NCBI GenBank assembly: GCA_900095095.1
Contig: FMBT01000645.1
Coordinates: 1-29,242, forward strand
Direction: 5' to 3'
DNA: 29,242 nucleotides
From: Fragilariopsis cylindrus CCMP1102
Taxonomy: Eukaryota; Bacillariophyta; Bacillariophyceae; Bacillariales; Bacillariaceae
The position numbers were made by a program, and so were the translations under genes. Positions within the stretch are counted from its first letter, which is position 1. The number at the start of each line of letters is the position of its first letter. The notes beneath the pieces are model-generated. The model saw only the letters and a program-made list of their open reading frames with translations. It did no database searches and was not told the origin of the DNA. Positions 3,844 to 22,832 of this stretch are shown in pieces.

Positions 3844-6800
3844 ATGTTTATGAAATTACCAGCATTAATGATGAAAAAAAATGATTATACTCAAATACCA
3901 GAAGATTATCCTGGTGGAATGGTACATTTAATGGTTCAGTAGTGACTGGTGGAGGATCATCTGTATCCTCCAGTGCAGTTAAATCACATGAACGTCGTAA
4001 TCGGAATAGATTTTGGGATGGTGGTTCATTTTTTAGAAGTTGGAGTTTAATGAAATATTAGCATTAGGTATGGTATGTCTTTTGTTGGGTATAATAGTAT
4101 TTCAAGGTATAGAAGAAAATGATATAGTTGAAAAAAAAACTGTTGCACATAACTTGGAAGTATTAAATAATGAACAACTAAAAATAGAAAAATCATTAAA
4201 AGATGACCAAGATGATGATGATGACGATGATTCAATTCAACCATACACACCATTTATTTTCGTGATGCAGATAAAATACCAATACCACCTGGGTACGTTT
4301 TATCTTTATAATTAGATCGTTCGTTCGTCAGAAAGAAAGAGAGAGAGAGAGAGATAGAAGTTCTTGTCTATTCCGCCCACCCGCCCACCAAGTCAAATGG
4401 AATGGAATGAATCCAACTTCTCCGATGAGAGGAATAATGACTACAGTAGTGCGGAAGGGTTATCGCTCTATCTATCTCTCTTTCTCTTTCCGTCGCCACT
4501 TCGTCATTGAATTGATCATCCCCTATTTTCTCATCCCATATTGTCGTCCTTCTTCTTTCTTTTTTCCATCCCTTTACCTTCTTCCGATCCCTCTCCACAA
4601 AAAAATATAACTAACTAACTAAATAGTGTTAATATTGGTTCATGGTTAAGTTTAGAAGATTATTTTTTGCTGGACAACACAATTCAATAGAAGTTGCAAC
4701 TCCTGGACAATTTAAAACAAATGATGCATCTCAAGTTGCATCCTGTTTACCACCACTTCATGTAGGTAAAATAACTGGTCCTAAATGGTATAGTGAAACT
4801 GATTTATTTATGAATTTAATGAATAACTCTACAACGACAAATGTGTTGGTGTAGTGTTCAACATGCAATATCAGTATTCAAGCCCATAGAAGTTCATACG
4901 TTGATTTAGAAATTGATTTAAATAGAATTGCATCTCTTGGTATAAAAACTATACGTATACCAATGAGTTGGTGTCTCACAGATTATGATCCACGTCGTGT
5001 TGATTTAAGTAATTATACTGATAACGAATTACTGAATCGTTTTGCATGTGTCGATCCATTTTTAATAATACCTCAAGTGAAGGGAATAATAATACAACTA
5101 ATACAAATAAAACTGATACAAAAAGTAATACAAGTACAATATATTGGCCAGCCATACCAAAACCATTTATTGAAGATATATTAAAAGCATGTTCACGTGT
5201 TGGTTTACGTGCCTCATTAGATGTACATACCTATCCTGGTGGTACATCCATTGGTACATTTTCAGGTGTATGGCCAAATTGGCCTAAATTTTGGACTCAT
5301 GGTGGTGATGGTGTAAATATTGGTAAAGAATATATTCCTATTACTACTACTAATACTGGTGACGATATCGATAACAAAACTAATAATAACCAAACTACAA
5401 CTTCAAATACTATTGATGAAAAGTATGGAAATGGAAAGAATATTGGACATATATTATTTCATGAATTAGTTTCATGGATGGAAGAATTATCTATTCGTGA
5501 TCCATTTGCATTCAATGGTTTACGTGGATTGGTAAGTTCTTGTTTATCTGTTTTTCCGACTCATGTAACTGTATTACAAGCTGCATGTATACTCTATCTG
5601 TTGCGACTGCATCATCGTCATCGTCATCGTGTCTTTTTGAATGATGGGCGACGGGGGAATTGAATTGAATTGAATTGAATCGAATAAAAAGTGGATGGTA
5701 CGCACGACAGTGGTGTACAATATATTGTACTGTTTACTCGTTCCTTTCAATTCCGCTGACTCTTTATTGTGGAACGGGAACGATCATTTGCCAAAACTTC
5801 TTTTTTATTTTGTGACTCGACTCGACGTATTGTTATCATCATCGTTTAATCCTTATAATTTTACTCACCATGTATCTTTCTTTCCTTCTTTGCTTCTTCT
5901 CAAAATTTCCTACACAATTTATGTGTAGTCCCCAATGAATGAACCAGCACATTTAGCAGGAAATTTTTATATTGATGATGGCGATAATTTTTTACCACCA
6001 TTACCAGATGATTTAGCAATGAAATATAGAAAACAATTATCTCGTACATCCAGCAGCAGCAGTACGGAAGAATCAGATTTTCCAGATGGAACACATTTAC
6101 GTGTATTGTATTGGTTTCACGGTGCGATTGATATATTTAGAAATTCAAAATTACCATCATTAGGTAAAGAATTACATGCTAATATACATGAAAGTGTTTT
6201 TAAAACATTATCATCAAACAGTAGTAAAGTCGATGCACAGATGAGATATACAGCAATTGCTAATTGGTGGTGTTCGGATGTTATCGATGAGAATGTTGAT
6301 GACGATGATGAGAATGAGAATGATGATAGCGACAACGATAACAATTCAATGATAACGATAACACCAACAACAACAGTAGAAGAACGATCAACGTGGGCTA
6401 TATTAGATGTACATCATTATCACGCATGGTCTAATACATGTTCAGGTACAATTGATGGACAAGATAATGCAGCATATGCATGTGGTGATATAGATAAACG
6501 GCATAAAGTCCTTAAAGGATGTGCACGATGGGCACAAACATTTCGTGATATAATTGATACTCAATGTACTATCAAGAAAAAGAAGAAGAAAAAGAAAGAA
6601 AATATGAAGAAGGATGAACAACATATATATCCAGTATTTCATCCACATAAAGATCAAGTGAAATTAATGAGTGCAGAATTTTCATCTGCATCACATCATA
6701 ATTCACGTAAGTCTTGTAATGATATTGGTGGATTACGTGAATCTTATGTACGACAAGTCAATGCTGGCGAAAAAGCAGATGTTGAATTATTTTATTGGTC

Positions 6801-6945
6801 CTATCAAATGCCATATGGTGGTACTTTTAGACAGGCGTGGTCATTTACACAATTGATGTTTAATTTAGGTGTAGTCGATCGACCTGATACACCACAATTT
6901 GATTGTGATTCGAATTCTATTTATGATAATGAAATACCACCCTAA
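3844..6945 (+). CDS. Membrane-anchored GH5 family beta-glucanase-like protein (frame-disrupted, three exons)
   Basis: This is a glycoside hydrolase of the GH5 exo-beta-1,3-glucanase type, expected to hydrolyse beta-glucan such as chrysolaminarin or wall glucan. It starts at ATG 3844 with a short cytosolic stretch. A hydrophobic anchor follows (LALGMVCLLLGIIVFQ, about 4061-4108), then an acidic linker. Exon 1 ends at 4292, and exon 2 (4627-5531) opens with GVNIGSWLSLEDYFF, the typical GH5 entry strand. Next are 'IASLGIKTIRIPMSW', 'RASLDVHTYPG', and at the start of exon 3 (5929) 'MNEPAHLAG'. The acid/base Glu is codon 5941-5943. 'DVHHYHAW' and 'SAEFSSA' follow; the probable nucleophile is Glu at 6675-6677. 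Exon 3 (339 codons including the stop) is open. Exons 1 and 2 need base additions near 3918, 4035-4045, 4250-4260, 4663-4668 and 5059-5063, always to the -1 frame, and there is an in-frame TAG at 4852-4854. Laminarinase-like specificity is inferred. Confidence 0.85.
4293..4626 (+). other. Intron 1 of GH5-like gene
   Basis: The donor GTACGT at 4293 follows CCTGG. The acceptor 'ctaactaactaaatag' ends at 4626 and looks like a branch site next to an acceptor. Splicing restores P-G-V-N-I-G. It contains a (GA)n tract near 4340-4355 and a long pyrimidine-rich segment. Confidence 0.85.
5532..5928 (+). other. Intron 2 of GH5-like gene
   Basis: The donor GTAAGT at 5532 follows GLRGL. The acceptor TGTGTAG ends at 5928. 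The join yields GLRGL-SPMNEPAHLAG, rebuilding the GH5 catalytic acid/base strand in frame. A tandem 'aattg' run occurs at about 5660-5685. Confidence 0.9.
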
Positions 6946-7184: not shown

Positions 7185-7640
7185 TTTGTACATTGCATAT
7201 ACCATTCAAGTTCTTGGCGGATCAGACCAGAACAACAGCCATGAGATATATATTTCCTTCAAGAGGACCATTTTCTAACCAAATCATACTTCCTAAGGCT
7301 AAAGATGCTACCTTGTTTTCATTACCGTATGTCGCGCACGATTTAAATCATAACTACAGTATCCATTGCTGCCGCCGCCGTTTTCATCACCACCCCCACC
7401 ACCACCACCACTAACTGTAGCATTTATAGGATCGGTAATCGGTGCGATGGCTTTATCTATTGGTACTACGATCGGAGCGCTGGTAAGTTCAACAGCTGGT
7501 GGATTAGTTGCTGCAGGAGGAAGAGGAGGAGGAGGGGGAGGAGGGGAGTCGCTATCATCACTAGTAATTGAAGCTTCTGCACAGTTAACAAAAGTCAATG
7601 AGTATACTATAGCAAATCATCTAAGGTCTATAATTTCCAT
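7185..7640 (-). pseudogene. Decayed LPMO/cysteine-module paralog
   Basis: Read leftwards, this contains a copy of the end of the LPMO domain (TFVNCAEASI; the intact neighbour has IFVNCAEVTI), a Pro-rich then Gly-rich linker, 'NGYCSYDL', and a degraded version of the neighbour's C-terminal module. The last part includes an LGSMIWLENGPLEG-like string, readable only after a frame change at about 7320-7300. It then continues to a GICNV end resembling the neighbour's RQCKN. Several cysteines and the loop between ENGPL and the final segment are missing. Stops lie in frame just upstream, and no LPMO body is seen before it. It is about 140 bases downstream of the intact gene on the same strand, so a tandem duplicate lacking hevein and GH18 domains is likely. 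Close nucleotide alignment over the FVNCAE and WLENGPL segments is the support. Confidence 0.8.
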
Positions 7641-7776: not shown

Positions 7777-10173
7777 TTATACTTGTATTTCCTGGACGTT
7801 GTTCTTACATTGCCTATAACTGTCAGTCCCTTGGCATACGAGTCCATCGCAACAACCACTGATGTTATTGGTACATCCAGTATCTTTACCAAGGCATGTA
7901 CTACCTACAAGTGGACCATTCTCTAACCACAACATGGTACCTAATGCTTCGCATGTTTGACGACTTTCATTGCCCCATGTAGCGCATGTTTTAAAATCAT
8001 AAGAACAACACCCATTAGCATTTCCACCACCGGTAGGAGCACTGACTGGAGCGTTCGTTGGATCCGGAACAGGAGATACTGGAGCGTTTGTTGGATCCGG
8101 AACAGGAGATACTGGGGCGTTCGTTAGATCCGAAACAGGAGATACTGGGGCGTTCGTTGAATCAATAACAGGAGTGGCAACGGGGGGACTTGTAATAGGA
8201 TTCGTGGGTGCTCGATCAGAACAACTTGTACTATCAAGAGCAAGTTGGGATTGCATTGGTTTAGACCATTCACCATTCAAATCGTCATTTGCAACCCAAA
8301 AGAATGCACCACCGTTACATGGATAAGTTTCAGACAATTGTTCCATTACTTCTGTAGATTGGTACCCATCTAAATTGAATCCACCACAATCATTGATACA
8401 GAATCCATAGACGATCTTGCTTGCATCACCATTAAACAGTTCATTTGTAATTGTAGTGAAATGGGATAATGCACCGGGGAAGTTTGACAATGAGCGAACG
8501 TAGCCATTGTAATATTGCGGCATCAAAAAATCTAATGAACTTGCAACTTCTTTTAATATGTTAAAATATGCTTTTCCAGGTACCATATCAGGCTCCATGG
8601 GAGCGTGTGTTAATTCAGATCCAGCTGGCATACTATTACGTAAACCAACAGTAACATCCTTCAGGAACTTTTGTGCTTGTGCGCCCTTTGTGAAACCAGA
8701 TCCATTCTGATTATCTTCATAAAAATACTCATAGTCGATATCAACACCGTCTAGTCCCATTTCATTCACAATTGTTGTTAAGCGGTTAACAACCTGAGTC
8801 TCACGTCCGAAGCAGTAATCCCAACAATCATTGTTATCACCAGCCCAAGATCCACCCATACCTGCTCCACCAAAAGAAAGAATGATCTTCTTGCCAGCGT
8901 CCTTCCACTTTTGGATCAAATCAGGGCGTGGTGCATTTTCACAAACTGGTGGTGTATCAATTTCACAAGTTTCAGAACAGATATTCTTTCCTGGGGACCA
9001 TGAATAACTAACAGCGAATGCTATAACAATATGAGTGTATTGGGCCATTTGTTCGTCACTTGGACACGACTGCCAATTGCCAACATAGGCAATCAAACGA
9101 GAATCTTCATTTTGGTTTTCGATAAGTGTTGTCGGAGATGGATTTATATCAATCGGTGCTTGAACTGGGGACTCAACAGGAGGTGCTGGTATTCCATCAC
9201 AATGGCCTGTCGCGGCAAAGCCACAATATCCCCACTGTGAGCAGCACATCGATTGATTGGGACAAATACCATTTCCACGATTGCTGCCACCACAAGTACC
9301 GGTAATACTATTATCAGTAGGAGGGGGAAGGACAGGCGCCGGAACTGGAGCAGGAACTTCTACAGGTGAAGGAATAGGTACTGGAGGTGCTGGTGTAGGA
9401 GGAGCGATTGGTGGGGTTGGTGTCGGTTCTCCGGCAATTGTAACTTCTGCACAATTCACAAAGATCTCAGCAATTACAGTTCCAACACGGATCATAGGAA
9501 TATTTTCAGTGGGACCGCAACTTACAACAGCAGGATTCCAATTTCCTTTATTGCTTGTTGGAGTTTGATGTGTCGCAAAATACTGTTCGTATCCATCGTA
9601 GTTACAGTTGTTTGCAGTCCAGTATACCCATTGCAACAAAACTTCATCTCCTGCGATGTTATCTGGAAGCTTGAATTTATAAGAGAGATCTGCACCATCA
9701 CCCCATAGCATGGCACGCTCAGGATTGAGATCATCTTTAGGCATTCCATACTTCGTGTCTTCAACAAAAGTGAGAGGGTAAGCGTCGAAACATTCCTGTG
9801 TCGATGCTCGTCCCATAGGACATGCCTTGAGTGTAAAATGGCCGTAATGATGGGCTGTCATTTTCACGTCCACTTCAATGTCTTGGCCCTTTGAATATGT
9901 TGTTTGTGATCGCCATTGCATAGGACTCCCAGCTGCATCGAGCCACAAATCATAATCAGTCTCGCCTTGTTTCCCACAGACATTTGTGTTACTGTTTAGA
10001 CCCTGTGGAGTCGTCTCGGTCTGTGGCATACCAGCTGTTCCTTGCCAAGTTCCACTGGTAGCTGCCACTTGGTTTCTAGATGCAGGTTCGGTCATGAATC
10101 CATGGCCATCAACGAACGATGGTAGATTGGTAAGAAGGGCGGATAATACGGCGATAGAAAGGATGATGTTCAT
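7777..10173 (-). CDS. Secreted multidomain LPMO - hevein - GH18 chitinase - Cys module
   Basis: An intact 798-residue frame starting at ATG 10173. Residues 1-23 are a signal peptide ending VDG, so the mature protein begins His24-Gly-Phe, the copper-binding N-terminal His of an LPMO. The second histidine-brace residue is probably His109 in TAHHYGHF. The LPMO_10/AA15-like domain runs to about 246 (LLQWVYWTANNC, IFVNCAEVTI). A Pro-rich linker follows, then a hevein-type chitin-binding domain (about 294-326, CCSQWGYCG). The GH18 chitinase spans about 358-645, with SFGG (433-436), DGVDIDYE (475-482; acid Glu482), MPQYYN (551-556) and Trp626. Next is a linker of 11-residue SPVPDPTNAPV-type repeats, then a cysteine-rich module (722-790) of unknown role, perhaps carbohydrate-binding. 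It is expected to be secreted to act on crystalline chitin by oxidation plus hydrolysis. Having both chemistries in one chain is unusual. Domain calls are strong; chitin rather than another substrate is inferred from hevein plus GH18. Confidence 0.96.
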   Translation of the reverse strand: MNIILSIAVLSALLTNLPSFVDGHGFMTEPASRNQVAATSGTWQGTAGMPQTETTPQGLNSNTNVCGKQGETDYDLWLDAAGSPMQWRSQTTYSKGQDIEVDVKMTAHHYGHFTLKACPMGRASTQECFDAYPLTFVEDTKYGMPKDDLNPERAMLWGDGADLSYKFKLPDNIAGDEVLLQWVYWTANNCNYDGYEQYFATHQTPTSNKGNWNPAVVSCGPTENIPMIRVGTVIAEIFVNCAEVTIAGEPTPTPPIAPPTPAPPVPIPSPVEVPAPVPAPVLPPPTDNSITGTCGGSNRGNGICPNQSMCCSQWGYCGFAATGHCDGIPAPPVESPVQAPIDINPSPTTLIENQNEDSRLIAYVGNWQSCPSDEQMAQYTHIVIAFAVSYSWSPGKNICSETCEIDTPPVCENAPRPDLIQKWKDAGKKIILSFGGAGMGGSWAGDNNDCWDYCFGRETQVVNRLTTIVNEMGLDGVDIDYEYFYEDNQNGSGFTKGAQAQKFLKDVTVGLRNSMPAGSELTHAPMEPDMVPGKAYFNILKEVASSLDFLMPQYYNGYVRSLSNFPGALSHFTTITNELFNGDASKIVYGFCINDCGGFNLDGYQSTEVMEQLSETYPCNGGAFFWVANDDLNGEWSKPMQSQLALDSTSCSDRAPTNPITSPPVATPVIDSTNAPVSPVSDLTNAPVSPVPDPTNAPVSPVPDPTNAPVSAPTGGGNANGCCSYDFKTCATWGNESRQTCEALGTMLWLENGPLVGSTCLGKDTGCTNNISGCCDGLVCQGTDSYRQCKNNVQEIQV
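8044..8165 (-). repeat. 33-base tandem repeat encoding the Pro/Thr linker
   Basis: Nearly identical 33-base units (plus strand 'ggagcgttcgttggatcc' followed by 'ggaacaggagatact') occur about four times in phase. They encode SPVPDPTNAPV-type units, residues about 670-711, between GH18 and the C-terminal cysteine module. Copy number is likely to vary between alleles. Confidence 0.9.
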
Positions 10174-11421: not shown

Positions 11422-13209
11422 CTATTTTGTTTCGTTGTACCAACTATACCAACTGTCAAAACTTGGTTCACTTGTTTCAGTTGATAATGCATTGATTAAT
11501 TCTAATGTTTTATCAAAGATATTATCATTATCAATACATGTGCTAAGACGTGTTGCTGTTGATGTTGCTGTATTAGTCGGACTGCTACTTCTCGAATAAG
11601 TGGTAGACGACGCTGATGCCGATGATGATGGTAATGATACCAAGCAAGACGATGGTGGTGGTACTAGTATAGTATTACGAGATGATGATACCGGTACTAC
11701 TACGGGTATGACTACTGAAGAATTAGTAGTAGTGGTAGCAGACTTCTTCTTGTTTTTCTTGGAGGTAAATGTGGTAAATTTCTTTGAATTAAGAAATGCA
11801 TTTGCGGGAGATATTACATCTTCATCATCATCATTATTATCATCAATATCATCATCATTATCATTATCGTTTACGTATACGTTGCTATTGTTGTTAAGAC
11901 GATGCTGTGGTAGAGATAATAGCGGTGATTCTTTTAGTTTTAGATGGTGTTGGTGTTGGTGTTGGTGTTGTTTTTCTTCCTTCCTAGTAATAGTAATAGG
12001 ATGTTGCCTATGATAATGTTGAAGTTGTTGTTGATAAAGTTGCAGTTGTTGTAGCATTACTTCCTGTTCTTGTTCTTGCTGTTGATGATAAGATTGAAAT
12101 GGTGTTGTTTCAGGTTGTTCACCATATATTTTTCGGTTATTGACGTTGACATTATTGGGCTGTTGTTGTTGTAATTGTTGCAATTGTTGTTGCAATTGTT
12201 GTTTTTGTAATTGTAATTGTCGTTGTTGTTTGAAATCGATAGTATTAGCAATGGTAGTTGTTGTTGTTGGAGGAGGAGGTGGCGCGGTACCGTTGTTATT
12301 ATCCTTATCATTGCTGATAGATGATGAATCGTTATAAAAATTAGGTTCTTGATGTGTAAATGGATTATTATGTGATGGATATGGTAATGATGATGGCAAT
12401 GAATCTAATAATGATTGTGATCGTGATTGTGGTTGTGATTGTAATGGTAGTGACGGACCGGATAATTCAGATGCAGATGTAGATGTAGATGCAGATGCAG
12501 ATGCAGATGCAGACGCAGCAGATGCAGCAAATGCTGCTGCAGATAGAACAGTACTATGATTACTACGTACTTTACCTTTAATTTTAGATCGTATTATACC
12601 TCTACATAAATGTCTAGATCCACGTATAAAGTTCGTATGATAATAGGCACCTTTATCTTTTGAGCAACGTGATGAAAATCGTTGAAAGCCATACATATTT
12701 AATTGTCTTTGAAAACTTGTATATTTCGATTGACTAAAAAATTGTGGCATAATATAATTGACAAAATCCGTTGGATTATGTACTTTAAATGCTTTGCCAT
12801 GTGGCATCCATGAAACAATTTGTTTTAATTCTAATGTATTGTCTTTTTCCATTGCTTCTAACATATTATACAATTTCCATGGAAAACTGTAAGGAAGAGA
12901 GATACAGATAGAAGTTGAGGAAGTGAGTGGGAAGAAGAAGAAGAGTTTGGCTTTTGTGGGAAACGAACGCACATATAAGCCACATCGTAAAGGAACTTTG
13001 AAAGGGGGGTGGGCAGAGATATAGAGATCGAGTGATCGAGAATGCAGGCGAGAGAGAGAGAAAAGAAACGATAGAAGAGTTCATGCATATGTGTTAAACT
13101 TTGAAAACTACTGTACTTACGGTGTTGTTACTCCACCTCTAGCAATGGATTGTGGTACTTGTTTGTGTACACATGTTGTTGTATCAAGATTACTACCCAT
13201 AATCATCAT
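11422..13209 (-). CDS. Heat shock factor (HSF)-type transcription factor
   Basis: Two exons give 517 residues in one uninterrupted frame: ATG at 13209, exon 1 to 13121, exon 2 from 12886 to the stop at 11422. The HSF DNA-binding domain occupies about residues 31-135: FPWKLYNMLEAMEKDN, IVSWMPHGKAFKVHNP, then SKYTSFQRQLNMYGFQRF, which is the recognition helix and wing. It should bind heat-shock-element-like sites in the nucleus; stramenopile genomes carry many such genes. The rest is low complexity: an Ala/Ser run, a Gln-rich tract (QQRQLQLQKQQLQQQ-type), Asn-rich and His/Gln stretches, an Asp-rich patch, and a Ser/Thr-rich tail ending with an acidic/aromatic segment (SFDSWYSWYNE) that could be an activation motif. 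No clear heptad trimerisation domain is seen apart from the Gln-rich stretch. An upstream Ser/Thr-rich frame (13528-13238) would need a frameshift to join, so the in-frame ATG at 13209 is chosen. Confidence 0.93.
12887..13120 (-). other. Intron of HSF-type gene
   Basis: The donor GTAAGT starts at 13120 after ACAACACC. The acceptor CTTACAG ends at 12887. The join codes GVTT-PFPWKLYNML, placing the intron just before the DNA-binding domain and keeping the frame. The intron is 234 bases and contains a CT-rich tract. Confidence 0.92.
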
Positions 13210-21327: not shown

Positions 21328-22832
21328 ATGTTTTCTGTATCTAAATCAAGTTCTCTTTTGGCACACCGTGTTGCCTTCACTCGCAGGTACGTTCAAATTC
21401 TTTGTCTAATGGTGGATTGTAAGGATCGAAAAAGATTGATTCATTCGATGGGGGAGAATGGCAAGATAATAGCTAGTACGAGAATATTTTTTTGTCGTTT
21501 GACATGGCATGGCATGGCATGTCAAGTCACTTTGAAACGCAGTCTAAAAGAAGGTTGTGAAAACAGCGTCGTCGTCGTCGACCTCGTCGACCTCGTCGAC
21601 CTCGTCGTCATATCATCGTCAATAAGTATGTCATCAAAAGTTGACTTGTACCGGAAGCGACAATTGACAAATAAATGACTACGACGACGACAACGGCAAA
21701 TTCCCGTATAATGGTTTCTTTCGCATTCGTTTTCAAATTCACACAATCACAATCACAATCCCATCGAAATTCAATAAAGGATGTTAAATTGGCTGCGCAT
21801 CGATCGAGGCAGGCCAGAGACTACTTACTTGATTCATATTTTTGTATTTCGATTTTGGATATTCTACAGTAGTTGAAGAAGACGACGACGTCATTCATGC
21901 CTTTTTCTGCTCGTTTTTCCAGTCCAGTCTATTTTATTTATATGTTTTGTTTCCTTACAAAAACGCCTACCTGCCTCTTACATCTCTTGTCTTTTTTCTT
22001 CTTTTTTTGTCCCCTTTTAAAAATATTTATATTAACAACAAATAGTTTCGCTGGTGCACGTGATAAGCATACATTAGTATTAGTACGACATGGTGAATCT
22101 ACATGGAATTTAGCAAATAAATTTACTGGATGGTATGATTGCCCGTTAAGTGAAAAGGGTCATGTGGAAGCTGCAGAAGGTGGACGTCTTATTAATGACG
22201 CTGGTATTAAACCAAATATTGCATTCACGTCACTCCAAAAACGTGCTATTCGTACATTATGGCATGTCCTCGAAGAAACGAATCGTATGTGGATCCCTAC
22301 CATCAAATCATGGAAAATTAATGAACGTCATTATGGTGGATTACAAGGATTAGATAAACAAGAAACTGTGGACAAGTATGGTAAAGATCAAGTATTGACC
22401 TGGCGTCGATCGTATGATATTCCACCACCAACTGTTGATAAAACAAGTGAACATCATCCATCGAATGATGAACGTTATGCGGATGTTGCGGATTGGCCCG
22501 AAGAATTTACTGAAAGTTTAGCAACCACATTAGATCGTGTGGTACCATATTGGGAAAGTGAAATTGCACCAGAATTAAAATCCGGTAAGACTGTATTAAT
22601 TGCTGCACATGGTAATAGTTTACGTGCCTTAGTGAAACATTTAGATGGTATTGATGAATCGGAAATTTCCAATTTAAATATTCCAACCGGTACACCATTA
22701 GTCTATGAACTAGATGAAAATTTAAAACCAATTCCACAAGCTGGTTCATTCTTACCATTGACTGGTCGGTACTTAGGTGATCAAGATGCGATCCGTAATC
22801 GTATTGAAGGTGTTAAGAATCAAACAAAATAA
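21328..22832 (+). CDS. gpmA: Cofactor-dependent phosphoglycerate mutase, mitochondrial-type presequence
   Basis: Exon 1 is 21328-21386 and exon 2 is 22046-22832; together they encode 281 residues without interruption. It interconverts 3- and 2-phosphoglycerate in lower glycolysis through a phosphohistidine. Key motifs are LVLVRHGESTWN (His35), FTGWYDCPLSEKG, TSLQKRAIRT, NERHYGGLQGLDK, WRRSYDIPPP, and AAHGNSLRAL (His208), plus the C-terminal GSFLPLTGRYLGDQDAIRNR. These fit the 2,3-BPG-dependent family (about 230-250 residues). The first 25 or so residues (MFSVSKSSSLLAHRVAFTRSFAG) are Ser/Arg-rich, lack acidic residues and look like a mitochondrial targeting peptide. Mitochondrial lower-glycolysis isoenzymes are known in diatoms, so that location is inferred. 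Exon 1 encodes essentially only the presequence. Confidence 0.95.
21387..22045 (+). other. Intron of the PGAM gene
   Basis: The donor GTACGT at 21387 follows ACTCGCAG. The acceptor ...acaacaaatag ends at 22045. The splice reads T-R-S-F-A-G-A-R. The intron is 659 bases and contains a GTCGAC-rich stretch (about 21569-21611) and a pyrimidine-rich zone at 21940-22020. Confidence 0.92.

Follow-up and report, generated by a model that had tools for sequence, protein, structure and literature searches.

Fusions to GH18 are reported for some lytic polysaccharide monooxygenases (LPMOs) of family AA15, in Chlorophyta, Bacillariophyceae and tunicates, and the activities of the family cover both cellulose and chitin (Sabbadin et al. 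2018, PMC5823890). The enzyme Jd1381 (JdLPMO10A), an AA10-CBM5-GH18 protein, was more active at full length than as separated domains, indicating intramolecular synergy (Mekasha et al. 2020, as reviewed in PMC10154629), and is named in that review as the only bicatalytic LPMO enzyme to have been characterized. The gene considered here lies in a 29,242-nucleotide stretch of the Fragilariopsis cylindrus CCMP1102 genome (contig FMBT01000645.1; hereafter the window), at 7777..10173 on the minus strand, and is a single-exon coding sequence for 798 amino acids, stop included. Its product is probably secreted and bicatalytic, an enzyme with which a photosynthetic diatom degrades chitin.

The reading frame runs from 10173 down to 7777 through 798 codons with no interior stop, inside a stop-to-stop open frame of 807 codons; the plus-strand frame over 7777-10173 is interrupted by stops. 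The intact 798-residue frame described in the initial annotation is therefore real, and its strand, unstated there, is minus. From the N terminus, the protein contains a likely signal peptide, an AA15-like LPMO domain, a six-cysteine hevein-like motif, a GH18 domain and a C-terminal cysteine module. In a Pfam search, LPMO_10 and Glyco_hydro_18 scored above their cut-offs and Chitin_bind_1 below; the other sub-threshold matches were to the EndoS TIM barrel, Toxin_35 and Peptidase_A4, and an NCBIfam scan gave no match near any cut-off.

Homologues were gathered with the fused protein as query, and the 120 listed of 259 homologues plus the query gave a set of 121 proteins. GH18 was present in all 121 and an LPMO domain also in 66, as detected with a profile built from 40 of the fused proteins (69 LPMO stretches were detected, eight of them shorter than 180 residues). 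The LPMO domain was N-terminal to GH18 in 66 of 66. Residue conservation was read from an alignment of 40 of the 66 fused proteins, picked for coverage, two rows of which stop short of His24. Chance motif matches were ruled out as an explanation by the E-values obtained and by residue invariance.

Residues 1-23 (10105..10173, minus strand, as are all gene features below) form a likely signal peptide ending in VDG, directly before His24. The start is hydrophobic, and in the 38 aligned proteins that reach the site the residue preceding the histidine is Gly (29) or Ala (9), with Val at position -3 in 29. A signal-peptide cut before this histidine, as first proposed, is consistent with these features; its exact position was set by eye and conservation only. 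The fusion protein is probably secreted.

The LPMO domain occupies residues 24-246 (9436..10104). Pfam LPMO_10 matched residues 24-243 with an E-value of 2.1e-15 and 58.3 bits (cut-off 23). The single 798-residue sequence matched the AA15 LPMO of Thermobia (5msz) weakly (E 0.003), and a profile of 10 LPMO domains matched the same structure from residue 1 onward, at E 7e-15. With this profile, the LPMO-type chain that came next was 5fjq (E 0.094), an AA10 enzyme. With the structure-chain match serving as a surrogate for the CAZy AA15 model, AA15 appears to be the LPMO family nearest to this half of the protein.

The two histidines proposed to form the copper brace, His24 (10102..10104) and His109 (9847..9849), aligned with His1 and His91 of 5msz, the latter correspondence being counted off the printed alignment. 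His24 is conserved in all 38 rows that extend to that site and His109 in 40 of 40, and both are predicted to be brace residues. Phe238, Glu236, Asn240, Cys241 and Glu243 are likewise each present in 40 of 40, and Phe238 would be the axial residue, judging from known LPMO structures. Residues 24-246 contain six cysteines, compared with the ten conserved in the Thermobia LPMO and its best animal matches; the relevant part of that report states no such requirement for the whole family (Sabbadin 2018, PMC5823890).

The LPMO domain is followed by a proline-rich linker (residues 247-291, 42% Pro; 9301..9435), the hevein-like motif and then the GH18 domain (residues 355-652; 8218..9111). Pfam Glyco_hydro_18 matched residues 359-559 (E 1.2e-10, 42 bits, cut-off 29.6), and the best solved relative was the GH18 chitinase 6k7z, at E 5.4e-14 for the single sequence and 1.3e-21 for the family profile. 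The DGVDIDYE motif noted initially was located at residues 475-482 (8728..8751) and aligns with the DGVDIDYE of 6k7z; D475, D478, D480 and E482, the last being the presumed acid, are found in 40 of 40 proteins. M551, Q553, Y555, N556 and W626 are also present in all 40, and Y554 in 34. A second proline-rich linker with short TNAPVSPVxD-type repeats (residues 653-718; 8020..8217) leads into the C-terminal module.

The hevein-like, CBM18-type motif spans residues 293-326 (9196..9297), with the sequence CCSQWGYCG at residue 310, and the family profile matched the hevein chain 1t0w at E 0.0009. The Chitin_bind_1 cut-off was reached in four of nine relatives scanned (P0011, P0097, P0098 and P0102); the best stretch lay between LPMO and GH18 only in P0097, the copies in the other three being C-terminal. 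Half of the fused proteins, 33 of 66, have a hevein core between the two catalytic domains.

The cysteine module of the initial annotation was placed at residues 720-789 (7807..8016), its second half having a cystine-knot-like cysteine pattern. An iterated profile was used to track it through the 121 proteins, nine loci of the same genome (G000; 67.9 Mb, 818 contigs; related loci were viewed as tblastn pieces and open frames) and the window. There were 22 matches: 19 in the 121 proteins, one in locus L031 and two in the window, namely the intact copy and a relic. Sixteen of the 19 module-bearing proteins also have an LPMO domain, and the remaining three (P0059, P0075 and P0099) are GH18 proteins with no LPMO detected. 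Six of the 19 (P0017, P0023, P0035, P0041, P0075 and P0099) have no hevein core, and in P0042 the module sits between the LPMO domain and the hevein core. All 121 proteins were drawn with a GH18-containing query, and spread of the module to other enzymes was seen only through L031:1891-3642 (minus strand, contig C108), where an expansin-like DPBB domain precedes it within a single frame; the neighbouring open frame of that locus (573-1838) has no Pfam match. In a search with the module region alone, five of 20 candidates passed, all of them close fused relatives.

The second half was compared with the C-C-CC-C-C framework of inhibitor cystine knots. Over the 19 module sequences, four of the six second-half cysteines are invariant and one is conserved in at least 90%; the first is absent in at least P0023 and P0035. 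Pfam Toxin_35, at E-values up to 10, was found in 14 of the 19 (best 6.9e-06), and reached 23.7 bits in the fusion protein itself, under the cut-off of 26.8. The module profile matched a two-repeat inhibitor cystine knot (ICK) chain at a summed E of 5.9e-6 (0.011 and 0.095 for the single repeats) and single-domain ICK chains from E 0.0012, values that can be inflated in cysteine-rich matches. These matches are read as a possible likeness in small scaffold between the module and ICK proteins, with no indication of toxin function. A CBM1 identity, prompted by the pattern W..C...CC.GL.C...WY.QC, found no significant support: CBM1 chains gave only E 0.09-0.49, and Pfam CBM_1 matched none of the 19 members.

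These features make the following mechanism probable. Removal of the signal peptide would expose His24, which together with His109 would hold one copper ion, and the AA15-type LPMO would then break chains oxidatively at the surface of crystalline chitin. The hevein-like motif, and probably the cystine-knot-like module, would keep the protein on the polymer, while the GH18 domain, on its flexible proline-rich linkers, would hydrolyse chains from the adjacent nicks made by the LPMO. Copper binding, both activities, chitin as substrate, binding by the small modules and cooperation between domains are all predictions of this scheme, as is, by analogy, the tethered dual activity on crystalline chitin put forward in the initial annotation. 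The genome search also returned 18 matches to GH20-type genes, whose products could finish those of the fusion enzyme. Several GH20-like open frames are arrayed at matching spacing on contigs C158 and C95, which are probably haplotypes.

Several observations weigh against this interpretation. Chitin_bind_1 scored 21.9 bits over residues 293-326, under the cut-off of 27.8, and residues 293-330 hold only six cysteines. Classical hevein has eight. What was first called a hevein domain keeps its CCSQWGYCG core and is for these reasons better described as hevein-like. The EndoS TIM barrel gave a weak, sub-threshold match (19.8 of 27 bits), which leaves open an endo-N-acetylglucosaminidase-like role for the GH18 half. 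Among nine fused relatives scanned, Pfam LPMO_10 was found in seven and missed P0011 and P0097. A literature search covering titles and the starts of abstracts returned no activity data on this protein or on any diatom LPMO.

The remaining points of this kind come from the rest of the genome and from the GH18 tree. The Pfam LPMO_10 genome search found the window gene alone. Loci L029 and L030, 91% alike over their longest piece, encode LPMO-hevein proteins that apparently have a lysine-rich cysteine tail, with no GH18 detected, and L026 encodes a hevein-GH18 protein with no LPMO detected. At L027:1428-4550 (contig C434) and L028 (C462), frames for a CE2-type esterase adjoin GH18. The LPMO and GH18 parts are thus found apart in other members in the genome, so the fusion is not required. 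In the GH18 tree (FastTree, 122 rows, 66 fused; L026 was left out, its domain being too short) the fused/unfused label switches 21 times, at least 15 of these switches being forced by starred branches, compared with a mean of 40.5 for shuffled labels and none of 500 shuffles as low. The repeated label changes suggest that partners have been exchanged.

If the protein is a chitin-degrading enzyme, its substrate may be the diatom's own or foreign, and these two uses are about equally likely, each being a serious possibility. As an own-wall enzyme it would remodel a chitin or N-acetylglucosamine (GlcNAc) polymer made by the diatom, as might happen when cells separate or fibres are released. Chitin is a wall component and scaffold in diatoms (PMC7874618), and a chitin synthase has been annotated in the sea-ice diatom Fragilariopsis cylindrus, where it is up in one growth phase (PMC5932028), an observation that also speaks against foreign chitin as the substrate. 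Other GT2 genes are present in the genome: a PF13632 search gave three matches, the near-identical L041 and L042, which have no closer family, and L043, which is weakly like a poly-beta-1,6-GlcNAc synthase (46.1 bits, cut-off 422.3). Neither L042 nor L043 matched a chitin synthase family in Pfam or NCBIfam. Against own-wall use, the PF03142 chitin synthase domain went undetected: the genome search gave no candidates, with the control positive in four of 14 genomes and an exon-wise search that can miss genes. Of the Tara diatom transcripts carrying a chitin synthase domain, most have PF03142 (420, versus 4 with PF01644; PMC10134812).

As a foreign-chitin enzyme the protein would attack chitin in parasites such as chytrid fungi, in grazers or in detritus, either as a defence or to supply nitrogen. 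The likely secretion signal is in keeping with such a role, as is the joining of hevein and chitinase, a layout of plant defence chitinases. The diatom-type chitin synthase was undetected in a genome with 104 light-harvesting-protein matches, and this pairing of a missing usual synthase with many light-harvesting genes is a weak hint that foreign chitin is the substrate. It is tempered by the exon-by-exon search, which can miss genes, of an assembly that may be incomplete; in addition, the PF01644 and GH19 searches were uninformative, having no positive control genome. A fuller proposal would be that a photosynthetic diatom with no usual chitin synthase turns a secreted, tethered oxidative-hydrolytic enzyme on foreign chitin, be it from chytrid parasites or in detritus. 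The enzyme would be anchored by its hevein-like motif together with a so far undescribed carbohydrate-binding module of cystine-knot-like type, one which diatoms would shuffle among their extracellular enzymes. Taken as a whole, this proposal is unlikely.

It is unlikely that the protein acts on a different substrate, whether cellulose-like or other glycans or glycoproteins that bear GlcNAc, or that its LPMO half has a non-catalytic role. The cellulose activity within AA15 (PMC5823890), the EndoS match of the GH18 half and the occurrence of the cysteine module beside the DPBB domain of L031 would all accommodate a non-chitin substrate; the joining of the LPMO to GH18 and a hevein-like motif, the chitinase identity of the closest solved GH18 relative and the invariance of the brace positions argue for chitin and a working LPMO.

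An assembly chimera or a gene-prediction artefact joining two genes can be dismissed as highly improbable since, although the related genes L026-L030 and L032 look intron-interrupted and the window gene does not, the 770-residue P0002 is 91% identical, aligns over 99% of the protein and has an identical layout, and proteins from transcriptome collections (P0011, P0018, P0056 and P0070) carry both domains on one chain. The transcriptome-derived proteins answer, for the relatives and not by RNA of this strain, the possibility that LPMO and GH18 are separate genes. Named fused proteins come from Pseudo-nitzschia multistriata (P0015), Fragilariopsis kerguelensis (P0011), Seminavis robusta (P0043), Skeletonema marinoi (P0097), Ditylum brightwellii (P0102) and Cyclotella cf. 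meneghiniana (P0108). The named proteins that match best come from a Fragilariopsis and a Pseudo-nitzschia, which makes a pennate diatom likely.

To compare the histories of the two catalytic domains, two fused proteins whose LPMO pieces are short were dropped, leaving 64 of 66. LPMO and GH18 distance matrices correlated (Spearman 0.489; highest of 999 permutations 0.177), suggesting that the two halves tend to travel together. In an LPMO tree of the 67 of 69 rows that were long enough, the unfused LPMOs of the F. cylindrus genome fall among fused ones at two places, with two changes. This fits loss of GH18 from those genes; because a fused protein served as query in gathering the homologues, the tree does not show an ancestral fusion. 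Viral contigs gave no pattern match, in a single-protein search that could detect close relatives only.

Elsewhere in the genome, the Pfam GH18 search gave four matches, in contigs C604 (the window gene), C253 and C421, and L032 is a further LPMO locus. L027 and L028, which are 98.9% alike over their longest piece and perhaps represent two haplotypes, have two C-terminal cysteine modules of the CxAIPxxELPxGxWAT type. They apparently encode an esterase-chitinase fusion that parallels the LPMO-chitinase fusion, and three listed homologues (P0061, P0064 and P0110) bear both esterase-type and GH18 Pfam labels. The fused gene is intronless, and the matches at L026-L030 and L032 show breaks of the kind that introns would leave; a retrocopy and intron loss are both conceivable.

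Directly downstream of the gene, at 7192..7600 on the minus strand, profile and frame analysis located the decayed relic of a related gene. What remains is an LPMO end (FVNCAE, 7566-7592) joined by a linker to a cysteine module that is broken (7192-7350); the relic contains stops, and no GH18 lies between the LPMO end and the module. A chitinase-gene cluster around the fusion gene was considered and rejected, the plus-strand open reading frames at 5046-5663 and 5935-6945 having no Pfam match at E 0.01; the second also had no PDB match at E 1. By eye, the two frames could be taken for portions of a single glycosidase. The window also contains a heat-shock-factor type DNA-binding protein with long glutamine-rich stretches (11422-12972, minus strand; HSF_DNA-bind, 5e-22) and a histidine phosphatase superfamily protein (21873-22832, plus strand), presumably phosphoglycerate-mutase-like.

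The fusion had initially been singled out as the most unusual system in the window. That judgement is not supported: LPMO-GH18 proteins make up 65 of the 120 homologues listed for the fused query and are common among the relatives, diatom AA15-GH18 fusions are in print, and a bacterial analogue has been assayed. The arrangement probably arose more than once, because Jd1381, presumably from Jonesia denitrificans, is an AA10/CBM5 enzyme of a bacterium. No assay of an AA15-GH18 fusion was found in the literature searched, and the natural protein would allow one to ask, with a eukaryotic enzyme, whether chitin is turned over faster when oxidation is tethered to hydrolysis; chitin turnover is part of the marine carbon and nitrogen cycles. 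Both families are well represented among diatom metatranscriptomes, where a Tara table gives 1,232 LPMO_10 and 1,337 GH18 sequences (PMC10134812).

The AA15-GH18 fusions of Sabbadin et al. resemble the F. cylindrus protein in having both catalytic families in one protein, and in diatoms; the section that reports them does so in one sentence and covers neither biochemistry nor a hevein-like motif or C-terminal module (PMC5823890). Jd1381 shares an N-terminal LPMO, a binding module and GH18 on one chain, and differs in that AA10 takes the place of AA15 and CBM5 that of the hevein-like motif, and in being bacterial (PMC10154629). The modules named in that review are CBM14 for AA15 and CBM18 for AA9 (PMC10154629). 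Surveys of Thalassiosira list LPMO_10, with Chitin_bind_1 and CBM_14, among the auxiliary domains of chitinases (PMC7874618, PMC12028343). These are also diatom chitinases with LPMO_10, although from centric diatoms, and the relevant passages treat the domain as chitin-binding or auxiliary and do not discuss oxidative attack. Among AA15 LPMOs with disordered C-terminal regions, 18% are multimodular, the added modules including GH9, GH18 and WSC, and long low-complexity linkers are a further likeness; that work is a bioinformatic survey in which a term search found no diatoms named (PMC8615602).

A parallel to the C-terminal module is seen in the AA15 proteins of Saprolegniales, which have the short C-terminal cysteine modules X473 and X474, found also on GH18 and GH19 chitinases (PMC8393829). 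Compared by description alone, those modules are confined to Saprolegniales and are under 40 residues long, whereas the diatom module has about 70 (PMC8393829). The diatom module is a candidate for a new family of binding modules. The type of fusion is already reported, and the F. cylindrus protein is a further example of it; its C-terminal module is the less familiar part.

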